From contig NZ_SSXC01000028.1 in the NCBI RefSeq assembly GCF_021699055.1, forward strand, positions 1 through 49,976: a DNA stretch of 49,976 nucleotides. Direction: 5' to 3'. Origin of the DNA: Blastococcus sp. MG754426. GTDB lineage: Bacteria; Actinomycetota; Actinomycetes; Mycobacteriales; Geodermatophilaceae. Positions 1 to 4,996 of this stretch are shown here, piece after piece. The notes under the pieces are model-generated. The model was not told the origin of the DNA, ran no database searches, and saw only the letters and a list, made by a program, of their open reading frames with translations. The number at the start of each line of letters is the position of its first letter. Positions within the stretch are counted from its first letter, which is position 1. The translations under genes and the position numbers were made by a program.

Positions 1-1
1 C

Positions 2-206
2 ACCCGCATCGTGCTGGGCCCCGAGGGTCAGCCCCTGGACGTGGGCCGCACCCCGGCCCCTCCGCAGGGGCCCGCCGCGAGCCTGCGAGTGGCGGGGGGC
101 GGAGGGGTCCTTTCATTCGCCGGTTGCGACGCCCCGGCCCACTGGTGCGACGTGCACCACCTGGTGCACTGGGCCGACGGCGGGGACACCTCCCTGGAGA
201 ACTCCG
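2..206 (+). pseudogene. HNH endonuclease (DUF222-type) gene, 5' side fragment interrupted by an integrative element
   Basis: The frame enters from the left edge and shows the end of the DUF222/HNH family core: LDVGRT, then FAGCDAPAHWCDVHH and HWADGGDTSLENS. These are the first half of the HNH zinc/nuclease site. Between LDVGRT and FAGC the reading is low-complexity and does not match the usual family stretch (roughly RRL...RRAL.VRDGGC), while the +1 frame there reads RPLRRG, so small compensating indels are likely and the gene was probably already damaged. After the Ser of LENS the homology stops at the AACTCCG core. The rest of the HNH motif (LLCERHH) lies about 4 kb away at 4203. The start codon is outside the window. 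Confidence 0.85.
200..206 (+). other. attL core (AACTCCG)
   Basis: This is the left copy of the 7-bp core shared by both element edges. To its left is HNH coding sequence. To its right the HNH homology ends abruptly and the cargo gene starts 48 bp later. Crossover inside this core is inferred from the frame restoration. Confidence 0.75.
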
Positions 207-253
207 CCCATCGGCAGGGCATCCCCCCGAGCGCATGTGTCAGGGTGTGAGTC

Positions 254-1714
254 ATGCGAGTTCTCTGCCTCGATTGCAGGCTTGGCATCGACGCCGATGA
301 CTACAGCTTCGGATCCACGATTTCTCTGTACGACTATGACGTCGTCATCTGGGACCCAGCGAACTCGCTAGAGGACTACACACTCCATTCCACGACCTAC
401 ATGGGGCTCCCTAGTCTCGCCACACACAAGTCAGCCGCGTTGCAACGAGACGTCGCGCGGCGACGGACAGAGTTCCTTGAATTCATAAATCTCGGGCGCA
501 CTTTGATCGTCTTCGTCCCTGGCGCAACCGAGGTCTATATTGACACTGGCGAGCGGCAGCATTCCGGAACTGGGCGAAACCGAGCTACGACGAAGATCGT
601 CAAAGAGTTCGACATCATGAAGGCCGTGCCAGCCAATATTGAGCTGAAGCCAGCGGCTGGATTTGAGATGGAAGCGGCTAGCGACCTGATCGGCCCGCTT
701 TTTCGGCGCACTCCTGGCGCTTGGCTCTACCGATCCGTCTTGGAGAAAGAAGACACTCTTCGGCCCCTGTTGCACGTTAAGGGGACTCGCAAGATTGTGT
801 CGGGAATGATCCGGCAAAAGAATAGTGGCGGCTTGTTACTGCTGCTCCCCGACCTAATCCTCGATGATTCTGACGAAGACGCTGGAGGAACGGAAGAGTC
901 TGCCGGGGAAAGCTCCTCTCTCAGGGACGCGTCTCTCGCACTCCTGGACTGGGTCAGGTCTTTAACCACCGAAGAGGAAGCGAAGGTTCCAGACTGGGCG
1001 AGCCGGTTCCTTTTTGCAAGCGAGCTCGAACGGACCGAACGCCGATCGAAACTGGAGGCGGAATTGTCTGAGACGCTGGCCCGCCTCGATTTGCTCAAGG
1101 CGGAGGAAGCCCAGGAAGCGCAGTGGAAGGTGCTTATCCATGGCGGCGGAGAGTCACTGGAGCGCCAGGTGGCCCGCGCATTCGAGGTGTTCGGCTTCAC
1201 TCTCGAAGACACGGTAAAGGGGCGAAGTGACCTCCGCGCCGTTCGAGGGGACGCGCGTGCGGTGGTCGAGGTCAAGGGCCTCGCCAAGAGTGCGGGCGAG
1301 AAGCATGCCGCCCAGCTTGAGAAGTGGGTGTCCGACGAGCTGGCCAACGGAAAACCGGCGAAGGGCATCCTCGTGGTCAACGCCTGGCGCGATATTCCAG
1401 TGGATGAGCGACGGGAGGACGTATTCCCGGACCAGATGCTGGCGTATTCCGCGCAGCGGAATCACTGTCTGGTGTCGGGACTGCAACTGCTCGCGATGGC
1501 GCGGGCTTGCATTGCTGACCCGTCTCGTGCGGACGAGTTGGCCAGCCTGCTACTGGAGACGACCGGGCGGATCTCCGGATGGGACGACGCTTCTCGTGTC
1601 TTCGAGGCGACAACCACGGACGAAGTAAGCGTGGGCAAGGAAGCCGATCTGCCCTCCGCTGCCGCCGGTCAGATCGAGGGTGAGTCAGCCGAGGAGGAAG
1701 ACCCGAAGGACTAG
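254..1714 (+). CDS. Uncharacterised protein: N-terminal alpha/beta domain, coiled coil, C-terminal PD-(D/E)xK nuclease-like domain
   Basis: 486 aa; I do not recognise the full-length family. Residues 1-200 look like an alpha/beta domain, with hydrophobic strands RVLCL, DVVIWD, TLIVFVP and GGLLLLLPDL. Residues 203-222 are an acidic linker and about 252-292 a charged coiled coil. Residues 296-400 carry a restriction-endonuclease-like pattern: E303 in a helix, D326 (SDL), E339-V-K341 (VVEVKG) and strand ILVVN at 372-376. The tail is acidic. Codon use is clearly more A/T-rich than in the neighbours (AAT, ATT, TTG, AAA are common), a sign of transfer. It is the main cargo of the 4-kb element, directly inside attL. 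By analogy with other island cargo it may cleave DNA, for example in defence or element maintenance; that role is inference. The ATG at 254 is the first start in the frame. Confidence 0.8.
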   Translation: MRVLCLDCRLGIDADDYSFGSTISLYDYDVVIWDPANSLEDYTLHSTTYMGLPSLATHKSAALQRDVARRRTEFLEFINLGRTLIVFVPGATEVYIDTGERQHSGTGRNRATTKIVKEFDIMKAVPANIELKPAAGFEMEAASDLIGPLFRRTPGAWLYRSVLEKEDTLRPLLHVKGTRKIVSGMIRQKNSGGLLLLLPDLILDDSDEDAGGTEESAGESSSLRDASLALLDWVRSLTTEEEAKVPDWASRFLFASELERTERRSKLEAELSETLARLDLLKAEEAQEAQWKVLIHGGGESLERQVARAFEVFGFTLEDTVKGRSDLRAVRGDARAVVEVKGLAKSAGEKHAAQLEKWVSDELANGKPAKGILVVNAWRDIPVDERREDVFPDQMLAYSAQRNHCLVSGLQLLAMARACIADPSRADELASLLLETTGRISGWDDASRVFEATTTDEVSVGKEADLPSAAAGQIEGESAEEEDPKD

Positions 1715-1757
1715 GCGATCCGCCAGGTGCCTGCGTCGACCGCTTGGCGGTGGGGGG

Positions 1758-1883
1758 CCGGGGACACTCTTCCCCCGGACCCCGCAACTGCCGGTTGCGG
1801 TCGTTCCACTTCGCTGACCGCCGCGCGAGGGCGGCGGTCAAGGGTGCCGGAGGCATCGCGTAGCGGCGCGGAGCGCCCTTGAC
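1758..1883. repeat. Cluster of GC-rich inverted repeats downstream of the nuclease-like gene
   Basis: The gap of about 300 bases between the nuclease-like gene and the HTH gene holds no convincing ORF but has four stems in a row: CCGGGG/CCCCGG (1758-1763 with 1773-1778), CCGCAAC/GTTGCGG (1782-1788 with 1794-1800), GACCGCCG/CGGCGGTC (1816-1823 with 1832-1839) and GTCAAGGG/CCCTTGAC (1837-1844 with 1876-1883). They could be terminators for the nuclease-like gene or part of a structured RNA. None is followed by a T run. Confidence 0.5.
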
Positions 1884-1993
1884 GGCCGCGCGCCAGAGTC
1901 GGGGACGGGGCAAGGCGCCGGAGGCGCCCCTTGGGAACGTTGCGAATAGGTACCCCACTGCAGGTCAGAGCCTTGTCCCATAACAACTTTGGT

Positions 1994-2020
1994 TTACGTG
2001 TGCGACAACGTAAGTTGTCG
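1994..2020. promoter_or_regulatory. Overlapping inverted repeats directly upstream of the HTH gene (putative operator)
   Basis: Two nested inverted repeats lie just before the GTG at 2024: TTACG (1994-1998) with CGTAA (2009-2013), and CGACAAC (2003-2009) with GTTGTCG (2014-2020; 4-nt spacer GTAA). A further ACAACTT occurs at 1983-1989. Their position suggests autoregulation by the small HTH protein; this is inferred. Confidence 0.5.
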
Positions 2021-2023
2021 GTC

Positions 2024-2344
2024 GTGAACCGCGCCCAAAGACGGGCCGCAGAGCGGCGCGCGACCAAGCACCGCCCGCGGCCGGGCCTGCTGATCGAATC
2101 GCCGCCACCGGCGGCGCAGCCGCCGAGTGCGGCGAGAGACGTGGCTCCCTCGGTCCCGCCAAGGGTCAACGAGGTCGACATGCTGGTGCGGCTACGCCGA
2201 GCGGCCCAGCGGCGTGCAGAGGCCGAGTCGGCACTGCTGGCCGAGATGCGACAAGCGCGCGCTGCCGGGTTGTCGTTCGCTCGGATCGGCGGCGCAGTGC
2301 AAGTCTCGGCGCAGGCCGTACGGCAACGGCTGCTCCGCGACTGA
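2024..2344 (+). CDS. Small helix-turn-helix protein of the element
   Basis: 106 aa from the GTG at 2024. I chose it over an upstream ATG at 1931 because the protein then begins with MNRAQRRAAERRA, a common start style in actinobacteria, and because the region before it is a palindromic operator. The N-terminal half is basic and proline/alanine-rich. The C-terminal half, from VNEVDMLVRLRRAAQRR, is a helix followed by an HTH-like segment (ARAAGLSFARIGGAVQVSAQAVRQRLLRD), similar in pattern to sigma-like or MerR/Xre recognition helices (LS..RIG.A..VS.QAV.QR). It probably binds DNA and may regulate itself, the cargo or the recombinase. The exact family is not recognised. Confidence 0.6.
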   Translation: MNRAQRRAAERRATKHRPRPGLLIESPPPAAQPPSAARDVAPSVPPRVNEVDMLVRLRRAAQRRAEAESALLAEMRQARAAGLSFARIGGAVQVSAQAVRQRLLRD

Positions 2345-2502
2345 CTGCGAACCTGTCGGACCCATCCGGCAGACTGCACGGGCGCGGCAGAGCCGTCGGG
2401 TCACCCACTCGGGCCCGGCGGCGGGTAGGACCCCAATCCCCGCGTGCGGTGCCTCTATCGAGTCGGTGGGCGGCAGGCTGCTGATGCCGGAGCAGTAACT
2501 GA

Positions 2503-2613
2503 GCCGAGGGCGTAGGCGCCGGGGTCGATCCCTACTGGATCGATGCCTCGGAGCGCGTCGTGCACTGCAACTGTTCTTTCACGTCCCCGACGGGGGCGAC
2601 GTGGCCAAGCTGA
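2503..2613 (+). pseudogene. Short residual reading frame before the small element ORF
   Basis: An open frame without ATG reads GVDPYWIDASERVVHCNCSF followed by TSPTGATWPS and a stop at 2611-2613. Its amino-acid pattern (PYWIDA, HCNC) looks protein-like rather than random. It overlaps the GTG of the next ORF at 2601 by 13 bases. It may be the tail of a lost gene or a tiny gene started at an unusual codon. Low certainty. Confidence 0.2.
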
Positions 2614-2837
2614 CTCCGGCCCAGGTGGCAGAGTGGCTGGCCGCCTCCTGCGCGGCCCAGGGCGTGCCGGTCCGGGTGACCGACCCGCAGGTACTGGCGA
2701 CGGTGGCGGCGCTGTTGCCGCCGCCGGAGGCGGGACCGGCGACCGCGCGGAGCGCGGGCGGGGATCGGCCCGGCGCGGCTCAGCCTCGCCAGACCGCGCG
2801 CACCCGCGATGGGCTCAGCGACCGGGCGCCGGGCTGA
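2601..2837 (+). CDS. Small hypothetical protein next to the serine recombinase
   Basis: 78 aa from a GTG. The first 40 residues (KLTPAQVAEWLAASCAAQG, then VPVRVTDPQVLATVAALL) have a clear amphipathic pattern, and I recall similar small proteins beside serine recombinases in actinobacterial elements (memory, not checked). The proline/arginine-rich C-terminus overlaps the 3' end of the convergent recombinase gene by 58 bases and is probably not structured. The function is unknown; an accessory or excision-related role is only a guess. The frame is open upstream to 2499, so the start could be earlier if a non-standard codon is used. Confidence 0.45.
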   Translation: MAKLTPAQVAEWLAASCAAQGVPVRVTDPQVLATVAALLPPPEAGPATARSAGGDRPGAAQPRQTARTRDGLSDRAPG

Positions 2838-4177
2838 CCGGGTTCGATCACCGCGTGGTCGAGTACCGCTGAGACGATCGCGGCCTGCCGCGACAGGCTC
2901 AGGTCGTCCCACTGGTCGCGCAGGTGACCGCCGTTGCCCGGCAGGCCGGTCAGGGCGTCGGTGCGGGTGAGGGCGGTGAGCTGGCGCTGCCGGTCGGCCA
3001 TGCGCCGCTCGATCGGCTCGCGGGCGGCCCGCCATTCGCGGGCACTGATCTCCTGCTTGCCGAACATCACCGCGAGCCCGTCGAGCTGGGCCTGGTCGCC
3101 GGCCAGCCCGTCGGAGAGCTCGGCGGCGGCGGTGTCCTCGCGCCGGCCGGCCAGCACGTCGGCCAGCTCGGGGCCGTCGAGGCGTTGTAGAACGGCCTCG
3201 ACCAGGAGCGCCTCGAGCGGTTCGGCGACGACGGTGAGCCGCCCGCAGCCGCCGTGGTCGGGGCCTTTGAGGCAGACGTAGCGGCGGGAGTTCTCGCGCG
3301 GGGAGGCGTAGAGCCTTCGGCCGCACTTGCCGCAGCGCAGCAGCCCGGACAGTACGTAGCGGCGCGGTGTGCGGCGTCCGCTGGCCACGCGCTCGGCCAT
3401 GCGGGCCAGCACCCGGTCCCGGTCGGCGGGGTCGATGATCGCGGGCCACTGCGCGGGGCCGACCACTTCGCCCAGGTGCTCGCGCAGTCCGGCGATGCGC
3501 CCGGAGCGCAGCAGCCCGCGCAGCGTCGGGGAACGCCACTCGCGGCCGGTCACCGTGGACACGCCCTGCTCGGTGAGCCAGGTGCACAGCGACCGCAGAC
3601 TTTCCCCGGCCAGGTAGCGGGCGACCAGATGCCGGATCACCTCGGCCTCGTCCGGGCGCACGGTCACCCGGTCGGCCTCGTAGCCGAAGGGTCGGACGCT
3701 GCCGCCGTGCGGGACACCGGAGGCCGCGTTCTGCTCCCACTTGCGTCGCATGCGGCGGCTCTTGGCCGCTGACTCGTTCGCTGCCACCGCCGCCATGATC
3801 CTTCCGATCAGCAGCCCGTCCCCGGTGCCCAGGTCCATGTCCCCGGACACGAACCGCACCTTGCGGACACCGGCGGCGTCCACCGTGGCGACGAACTGCT
3901 CCAACTCCACCGGACGGCGGGTCAGCCGGTCAACGTGGTAGCAGATCACCGCGTCACGTAGGCCGTCGGCCAGGTCGGTGAGCATCTGCTGATAGGCCGG
4001 GCGGCGCTTGCCCGAGTAGGCCGACAGGTCGTTGTCGACGTACTCCTGCGCGACCGGCCAGCCGACCTGCTCCGCCAGGCGGCGGCAGTCCTCCAACTGG
4101 CGGGTGACGCCCAGGGCGCGGCCCTCGGTGTCGCTGCTGATCCGCGCGTAGACCGCCGCCGCTCTGACCTCCGACAT
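2780..4177 (-). CDS. Large serine recombinase (integrase/resolvase family)
   Basis: 465 aa. Residues 5-150 are the resolvase catalytic domain with YARIS (nucleophile Ser14) and the DRLTRR arginines (about 84-88). Residues 160-265 match the recombinase domain, followed by a zinc ribbon with C282, C285, C302 and C311, and a coiled-coil stretch at about 350-405. This is the architecture of phage-type serine integrases that join attP and attB without host factors, though shorter than most phage ones. It starts 26 bp from the attR core and reads inwards, so it should mobilise this 4-kb element. The C-terminus overlaps the small ORF on the other strand. All key residues are present, so it is probably functional. 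Confidence 0.93.
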
Positions 4178-4183
4178 GGGGGC

Positions 4184-4189
4184 AGATTA
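4184..4189 (-). promoter_or_regulatory. -10 box of the recombinase gene (leaderless)
   Basis: TAATCT on the minus strand ends 6 nt before the ATG of the recombinase. The upstream promoter DNA runs through the attR core at 4203-4209, so part of the promoter is host DNA in the integrated state and element DNA in the excised circle. Confidence 0.5.
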
Positions 4190-4202
4190 GCGAAGCGTCG
4201 CA

Positions 4203-4209
4203 AACTCCG
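4203..4209 (+). other. attR core (AACTCCG)
   Basis: This is the right copy of the 7-bp core. The sequence to its right is the second half of the HNH gene, in frame with the first half. The sequence to its left is the recombinase promoter. Confidence 0.75.
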
Positions 4210-4310
4210 GGCTGCTGTGCGAACGGCACCACACGAAGGTGCACCACGGGTTCCGCGTCGAACGCCGACCCGACGGCCGATGGCGCACCTGGCGGCCCGA
4301 CGGCACCGAA
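4203..4310 (+). pseudogene. HNH endonuclease gene, 3' side fragment
   Basis: In frame from the attR core this reads [17 protein letters not shown], then [19 protein letters not shown], the standard end of DUF222/HNH proteins. LLCERHH completes the HNH site begun in the fragment at 2-206. The frame stays open to 4478 and overlaps the upp gene, so the original stop codon seems lost or lies where I cannot recognise it. Confidence 0.85.
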
Positions 4311-4359
4311 GGGGGCACCGGCTGCGAGGACGGCACCCGGTCCCGCCCGCACCGGCCGA

Positions 4360-4365
4360 TACGGT
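4360..4365 (+). promoter_or_regulatory. -10 box of upp (leaderless)
   Basis: TACGGT lies 7 nt before the GTG start, the spacing expected for a leaderless transcript. No Shine-Dalgarno sequence is visible. Confidence 0.5.
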
Positions 4366-4372
4366 GTCCGGC

Positions 4373-4996
4373 GTGCAGCTCACCGTCGTCGACCACCCGC
4401 TGGCCCGTGCCCGTCTGTCCCGGATGCGCGACGAGCGCACGGACAACGCCATGTTCCGCGCCGCGCTCCGCGAGCTGACGCAGATGCTGGTGTACGAGGC
4501 CACCCGCGACCTCGCGATCGCCGAGGAGCCGATCACCACCCCGGTCACCACGACCACGGGGTACCGGCTGGCCGCCCCGCCGCTCATCGTCCCGGTGCTG
4601 CGCGCCGGCCTCGGCATGGCCGACACCGCGCACGGGATGCTGCCGGAGTCGCAGATGGGTTTCGTCGGGCTCGCCCGCAACGAGGAGACCTTCCAGCCCG
4701 AGGCCTACATGGCCTCGCTGCCCGAGAGCCTGGTGGACCGCGACGTCTTCGTCCTCGACCCGATGCTCGCCACCGGCGGTTCGCTGGTGCACTGCTGCGA
4801 GCTGCTGACCGCCCGCGGCACGACGTCGATCACCGTGCTCTGCGCCCTGGCCGCCCCCGACGGGCTGCGCCGGCTCGAGGAGAGCGGCCTGCCGCTGCGG
4901 GTGTTCACCGCCAGCGTCGACGAGGGGCTCAACGACAAGGCCTACATCGTCCCGGGCCTCGGCGACGCCGGCGACCGCCAGTTCGGCGCGGTCTGA
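4373..4996 (+). CDS. upp: Uracil phosphoribosyltransferase
   Basis: 207 aa, the usual length. It converts uracil and PRPP to UMP in pyrimidine salvage. [18 protein letters not shown] at the start, [10 protein letters not shown] and the PRPP-binding stretch [11 protein letters not shown], with GLND near the end, are family hallmarks. The open frame extends upstream to 4217, but that part is HNH remnant. The GTG at 4373 gives the right protein start ([11 protein letters not shown]) and has a -10 box 7 nt upstream. The next gene starts 2 nt after its stop, so the two are co-transcribed. Confidence 0.96.

Follow-up and report, generated by a model that had tools for sequence, protein, structure and literature searches.

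How did a 4-kb island come to lie inside an HNH gene, and which bases mark the point of its entry? The question is raised by positions 1-49,976 of contig NZ_SSXC01000028.1 (GCF_021699055.1, forward strand) of Blastococcus sp. MG754426, called the window hereafter for its whole length. Here a DUF222-type HNH gene is interrupted by 4003 bp (207-4209) that encode a serine recombinase. This island is probably a compact integrative element, which its serine recombinase would have inserted at the Asn codon of the H-N-H motif. Insertion, site, recombinase family and layout are read from the sequence itself. In the following, L- and G-numbers label the loci and genomes compared, and G000 is the window's own genome. 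The features of the window are:

1..206, forward: upstream fragment of the split HNH gene (DUF222 type), which also forms the B half of attL; truncated by the start of the contig, reads ...DVHHLVHWADGGDTSLENS and covers positions 225-292 of our own hidden Markov model (HMM) profile
200..202, forward: AAC, coding for the N of H-N-H (Asn); its AA (200-201) is the presumed crossover dinucleotide in attL
203..226, forward: P arm of attP on the attL side, an imperfect inverted repeat of the P' arm
254..1714, forward: cargo gene, 486 aa, of no known family; C-terminal half PD-(D/E)xK-like (GRSDLRA..AVVEVKG)
1931..2344, forward: possible helix-turn-helix open reading frame (ORF), 137 aa, weak (PF13404, E 0.0049, below cut-off)
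2423..2565, forward: conserved non-coding block, candidate replication origin or leader; in sister elements just 5' of rep
2601..2837, forward: small conserved ORF with GTG start, 78 aa, candidate recombination directionality factor; convergent with the recombinase gene and overlapping its 3' end
2780..4177, reverse: large serine recombinase (integrase), 465 aa (PF00239, PF07508, PF13408)
4178..4202, forward: P' arm of attP on the attR side, directly before the recombinase start codon; GGGGGCAGATTAGCGA..., fits the family consensus
4203..4209, forward: second AACTCCG copy, at the right edge; its AA (4203-4204) is the presumed crossover dinucleotide in attR
4209..4478, forward: 3' part of the HNH gene, positions 287-326 of our own HMM profile; the joined frame ends inside upp
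4372..4996, forward: upp, the neighbour used for locating empty sites

The island and its empty site

An earlier note on this DNA had taken two copies of AACTCCG as the edges of the island and had claimed that the outer sides, once fused, form a single HNH frame. Both copies are present. When 1-206 is fused to the sequence from 4210 on, a single open HNH frame results that terminates within upp, and the uninterrupted gene that the note had expected in front of upp was found in relatives. Of the other 22 genomes of the genus, 8 contain matches that cross the junction, covering 136-220 bp of the joined 240 bp at 81-90% identity (L043, L048, L049, L051, L054, L055, L057 and L058; L043 is cut by a contig end). 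All eight have upp, with the HNH gene upstream of it. The observation made in the note is confirmed. For the remaining 14 genomes no close match over the core was detected in the stretch compared, and some gave weak matches to more distant HNH genes. The neighbouring frame, which we take to be upp, the gene of uracil phosphoribosyltransferase, gave no match in Pfam; a relative of it is present in all 23 genomes of the genus. The window's own genome has ten DUF222 matches, seven of them over the cut-off, and one intact paralogue (G000:C13) is 92.8% identical to the joined DNA (joined protein 91% over 102 aa). A tRNA as integration target was rejected, since the window has none.

The repeat AACTCCG by itself was dropped as evidence, because common 7-mers are expected by chance: at least one occurred in 663 of 1000 shuffles of the two 110-bp edge regions, and the real regions have six 7-mer pairs in common. 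Position and homology decide instead. Most likely the exchanged core is the 2-bp AA inside the 7-mer, the first two bases of the H-N-H Asn codon, and the rest of the proposed edge repeat would be coincidental.

Attachment sites

To place the crossover, a weight matrix was derived from the P' arm in 37 HNH sequences; with the core excluded from the scan, it sets the crossover at a fixed distance. At that point HNH targets have the AA of the Asn codon, except that L112 and L123 read GA, which makes it an Asp codon. CpaF targets have the AA of the Lys codon in the Walker-A motif, and a group made up mostly of mycobacterial loci has TT. A motif search yielded a left codon for 25 of 32 loci, one of which, L140, is evidently a mistake. 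Once L140 is set aside, the two edges are identical over 2 to 12 bp, around AA save in L123.

The attP of the circular form was readable from the window, as claimed before: a 52-bp site can be composed from the two edges. Across 25 loci such composed sites are self-complementary at a mean of 25.8 of 52 positions versus 12.5 (maximum 26) for shifted halves, a score somewhat favoured because the left position was picked among candidates by symmetry. The arms follow a family pattern of inverted GGGGNCA-N-ATTAGCGA. Short identity between attL and attR and an attP of about 50 bp with inverted arms were found for the family.

The recombinase and its targets

The 465-aa protein matches PF00239 Resolvase (7e-27), PF07508 Recombinase (2e-13) and PF13408 Zn_ribbon_recom (1e-10), all over the cut-offs, and has profile matches to the integrase chains of TP901-1 and A118. 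By its domains it is a large serine integrase, predicted to catalyse recombination of attP with attB. The closest recombinases are those of L075 (88% identical) and L076 (83%). In a scan of GTDB genomes 133 relatives were confirmed, of which the best 80 were kept as scan loci. An automatic rule assigned the targets of 76 full-length recombinases, nine shorter ones being dropped: 39 lie in HNH genes in forward orientation (Asn codon), 16 are of the TT class and 8 of the CpaF class, and 13 were classed as other. The target labels cluster on the recombinase tree, with 15 changes versus 33.5 after shuffling; the CpaF label needs five.

Directly before the recombinase, a looser motif search recognised an HNH 3' half in 36 of the 80 scan loci. 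An independent HMM, built from uninterrupted DUF222-HNH proteins, was run on the same loci. Where a left half lies downstream, it ends at profile position 290-292 in 26 of 28 cases (exceptions: L082 at 297, L100 at 266). Seven of eight right halves found with this model start at 287-290, and that of L075 starts at 301. The earlier note had suggested a search for other recombinase islands at the same place in HNH genes; they were found, including a second one in the window's own genome (G000:C218). Its recombinase is 58% identical to that of the window and splits another HNH gene at the same codon; this island carries an HUH Rep and an 815-aa cargo protein with AAA-type matches below the cut-off.

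The TT class is mainly mycobacterial. In 7 of its 16 loci (L084, L086, L088, L089, L090, L093 and L104) the opposite strand, judged by eye, reads an HNH left half ending at the codon, in four of the seven also by HMM. Left edges of TT-type elements were looked for and not found. The CpaF class, at the Walker-A Lys codon, comprises L124, L125, L126, L131, L136, L150, L068 and L069. The flank of L131 matches solved CpaF chains from the Lys on (E 2e-37). For this class the motif search found no left edges; a family search then found both gene halves in the two genomes tried, those of L131 and L124. In both a gene of the T2SSE-family ATPase is split, one part ending at profile position 157 and the other starting at 154-155, and the halves are about 3970 and 4080 bp apart.

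Element layout

The layout consists of the recombinase, a small conserved ORF, often an HUH Rep, and interchangeable cargo, and recurs across genera. In 31 islands with both edges the distance from the recombinase start to the left edge is 3.1-5.9 kb, the exceptions being L147 at 1.2 kb, whose recombinase is truncated, and L070 at 8.5 kb. The larger element at L070 3519-7913 (G057) has a frame-broken recombinase and encodes a 1464-aa RHS-repeat protein.

Of the scan loci, 71 extend for 2.5 kb or more beyond the recombinase start; in 51 of these an HUH Rep was detected by HMM (49 near full length, two fragments). PF23343 was matched by 21 of 22 proposed Reps. One pick, L083, was wrong and forms a poor row of the Rep alignment. 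By HMM the Rep is absent from L075, L076 and the mycobacterial group. Most mycobacterial loci have a different replication initiator and an FtsK/SpoIIIE gene. In the plasmid pS2b of M. avium (L164, 5965-10826) recombinase, small ORF, replication initiator and FtsK/SpoIIIE gene follow consecutively; a tblastn search with the pS2b proteins gave matches in the Mycobacterium branch, L109 and L165, and none in the window-island loci L155 and L166. The pS2b row resembles an integrative conjugative element, and the flank of the L164 copy does not read as an HNH gene.

Our profile of the small ORF matches at E<1e-3 in 70 of 84 loci, including loci without Rep. The relative in pS2b is an annotated coding sequence between recombinase and replication initiator. 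The small ORF is the best candidate for a directionality factor, because it is found with both Rep types and with none.

Of the window island, only 1.8 kb on the side of the recombinase is shared with L075 and L076 (85% and 80% DNA identity, respectively). For the possible helix-turn-helix ORF no match was detected in L075-L078. The non-coding block lies just 5' of rep in L065, L067, L072, L114 and L135 and is retained in elements without Rep; a further copy was seen in L170. As four sources gave no Rfam match and folding was no better than that of shuffles (z 0.67), a structured RNA was rejected. The block is possibly a replication origin or leader.

Cargo

The cargo gene of the window has a G+C content of 0.60 versus 0.75 for the rest of the window. 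Its product has no match in Pfam, PADLOC or NCBIfam. Homologues with 53% and 48% identity occur in two other genomes among 397 searched of the order; the 396 genomes of the phylum yielded its own copy alone, and none was confirmed in viral contigs. A D..ExK pattern is kept in all three homologues. The stretch GRSDLRA..AVVEVKG presumably holds a PD-(D/E)xK motif, and the C-terminal half reads like a putative nuclease of this kind. That the gene serves defence is a guess from the company it keeps. A profile search against the PDB gave four weak response-regulator matches (E 0.38-0.82) and was not used. Near the homologue in L160 lies a gene that reads like a tyrosine integrase.

The cargo of the relatives was selected by codon-position G+C content, which gave 53 ORFs of at least 120 aa; 32 were picked by eye and scanned with Pfam. 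Strict anti-phage domains were identified in eight of these proteins from seven islands (AIPR twice, SIR2_2 twice, TIR_2, ThsA macro, ThsB TIR and CAP12 TIR). Seven further proteins have looser links: PIN_8, RelA/SpoT, DUF4062, AAA/nSTAND, AbiJ-like below cut-off, and AAA_15/21 with DUF3226. None of 20 flanking ORFs, from 48 drawn alike, had a strict domain (Fisher p 0.014), and one ABC transporter among them matched AAA_21. PADLOC gave 131 families for 37 cargo proteins versus 27 for 37 flanking ORFs; the totals are kept as support only, because the flanking control also matched. In L114 12716-14522 (Goekera deserti) ThsA macro and ThsB TIR genes (Pfam) are the cargo. PADLOC also has one ThsC (HIT) match among the 37 cargo proteins; it presumably belongs to a third gene at L114.

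Proposed mechanism and alternative explanations

We propose that the serine recombinase joins the attP (about 52 bp) of a circular element with the HNH stretch coding for the Asn of H-N-H, the crossover taking place at the AA of the AAC codon. Since protein function constrains this codon and the bases around it, the site would recur in paralogues and distant genera and offer a widely available target in Actinomycetota. Orientation would follow the central dinucleotide, elements with TT in attP being inserted in reverse. The small convergent ORF probably reverses the reaction. Many relatives carry an HUH Rep, so replication or mobilisation of the excised circle is probable. The elements would vary in small cargo, several of anti-phage type; that of the window has no Rep, and its putative nuclease cargo is most likely a defence gene. 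Mobility, excision, the directionality factor, replication and defence are what we infer. The earlier proposal of HNH genes as a recurring safe harbour was borne out even beyond the genus. It has a precedent, and since the insertion breaks the gene at its motif codon, 'safe' can mean only that the gene is dispensable or redundant.

In its wider form the proposal is an undescribed family of compact actinomycetotal elements, which would shuttle small anti-phage modules via motif codons starting with AA (HNH Asn, CpaF Walker-A Lys) and switch orientation with the dinucleotide. The Rep-less element of the window, which retains the non-coding block found 5' of rep in its sisters, could be replicated in trans by the Rep encoded on the other island of this genome, and its cargo would be a new nuclease defence gene. 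We give this wider form about an even chance. Several points weigh against the main proposal, insertion of a compact element, or against its parts. No circle, excision or integration has been observed. Of the 76 recombinases, 22 are without an assigned target (the 13 classed as other and 9 of the 16 TT loci), and 3 of the 39 HNH-class loci (L087, L108 and L146) are without a clean motif. HMM right halves adjoin the recombinase in just 8 of the 80 scan loci. The AA position is given by construction for the 37 loci on which the matrix was trained and is independent only for the others. With 22 of 52 positions self-complementary, the attP of the window lies inside the range of the shifted controls. 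The role of the small ORF is guessed from its position. A Rep remnant in the window element was rejected, as the HMM run on all 80 scan loci gave none there. Regarding defence, the window cargo matches no defence model, the scanned cargo proteins were eye-picked, and PADLOC gave three strong families among the 37 flanking ORFs.

The most serious alternative is an integrative mobilizable element (IME) whose Rep is really a relaxase and whose circle is moved by the conjugation apparatus of a helper. Elements of the actinomycete integrative and conjugative element (AICE) type carry a replication initiator and an FtsK/TraB-type transfer gene, and the Mycobacterium branch has another replication initiator with an FtsK/SpoIIIE gene. 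In Firmicutes, both IMEs with serine recombinases and IMEs with Rep-type relaxases are known (PMC5704250, PMC7563843). However, the Rep matches a replication family (PF23343), the window element has none, and no relaxase family was matched in the scanned proteins, with no oriT search made; we regard this alternative as possible but doubtful. A degenerate, immobile island, the fossil of an insertion that has lost its Rep, would agree with the lack of Rep in the window, L075 and L076. It is unlikely, as neither the recombinase frame nor that of the small ORF is interrupted and no att arm is missing. Moreover, the recombinase module is 80-85% identical in DNA to its counterparts in L075 and L076, whereas outside this module the island does not align with them, which suggests traffic.

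A remnant of a phiRv1-kind prophage or phage satellite that has lost its phage genes is less likely still. It is brought to mind by phiRv1 itself, which has a serine recombinase, lies in REP13E12 (PMC9317374) and is described as similar to phage-inducible chromosomal islands (PICI-like; PMC10654092). Yet no phage structural domain was found by Pfam in the window ORFs or the scanned cargo (PHROGs lay outside the scope), and the compact layout with both edges recurs across genera. IMG/VR contained three relatives with 31-39% identity from 118 pattern matches. Among phage records 600 match, all below 60%, the top-ranked of the 30 listed at 35.8%; on these two scans phage origin was rejected as the leading explanation. 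No phage or satellite genome with a recombinase of this subfamily at the HNH codon turned up in the scans. Finally, an assembly artefact or the chance position of unrelated HNH fragments beside a recombinase might be suspected, since the window starts at a contig end in a multicopy gene. Many assemblies, complete chromosomes such as L080 among them, show this arrangement at the identical codon, which makes an artefact or coincidence hardly credible, and insertion of a compact element by its serine recombinase remains the preferred explanation.

Relation to known systems

The precedent for an HNH-repeat target is phiRv1 of Mycobacterium tuberculosis, integrated in REP13E12 by a serine recombinase (PMC9317374). 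REP13E12 is grouped with HNH/DUF222 (PMC10589994), and an attB of 40 bp and an attP of 52 bp were reported for phiRv1 (PMC4111918). The likeness to the island lies at the level of genes: a serine recombinase in repeated sequence of the HNH/DUF222 type. In contrast to the prophage-like or PICI-like phiRv1, the islands described here are mostly 3-6 kb long with small cargo. Diverse large serine recombinases that share one conserved coding site are known for magnesium chelatase and prolyl isomerase (Durrant et al. 2022, PMC10083194); the main text of that study, its supplements apart, does not mention DUF222. Here, one subfamily uses one codon across genera, and target and orientation change around the same dinucleotide.

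Tn7-like transposons differ from these elements in recombinase chemistry and target. They likewise carry variable defence cargo on a fixed mobility module (PMC8649781), whereas the cargo here is smaller. In Firmicutes IMEs an integrated recombinase, a Rep-family protein or relaxase, cargo and a disrupted gene occur together (PMC5704250). These belong to another phylum; in the scanned proteins of the elements presented here no relaxase family was matched, and the cargo includes defence-type genes. In titles and opening lines of abstracts on DUF222/13E12 with serine integrases and on compact serine-recombinase elements with Rep and defence cargo (subscription papers, among them the phiRv1 originals, lay outside this search) no description of the family was found.

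The family would offer many natural att sites at one codon and a natural experiment on dinucleotide versus orientation. Its recombinases with readable att sites are candidate integration tools for Actinomycetota, and a split Asn codon in a DUF222/HNH gene may be a simple place to seek defence genes. Insertions of this kind also offer a reason why multicopy DUF222/HNH genes are found interrupted. As a separate observation, a third DUF222-HNH gene of the same genome (G000:C209, L074 4030-5480) is broken about 10 bp past the Asn codon by the insertion of a transposase-like ORF, which we take to be IS3-like, with a possible duplication of CTG.

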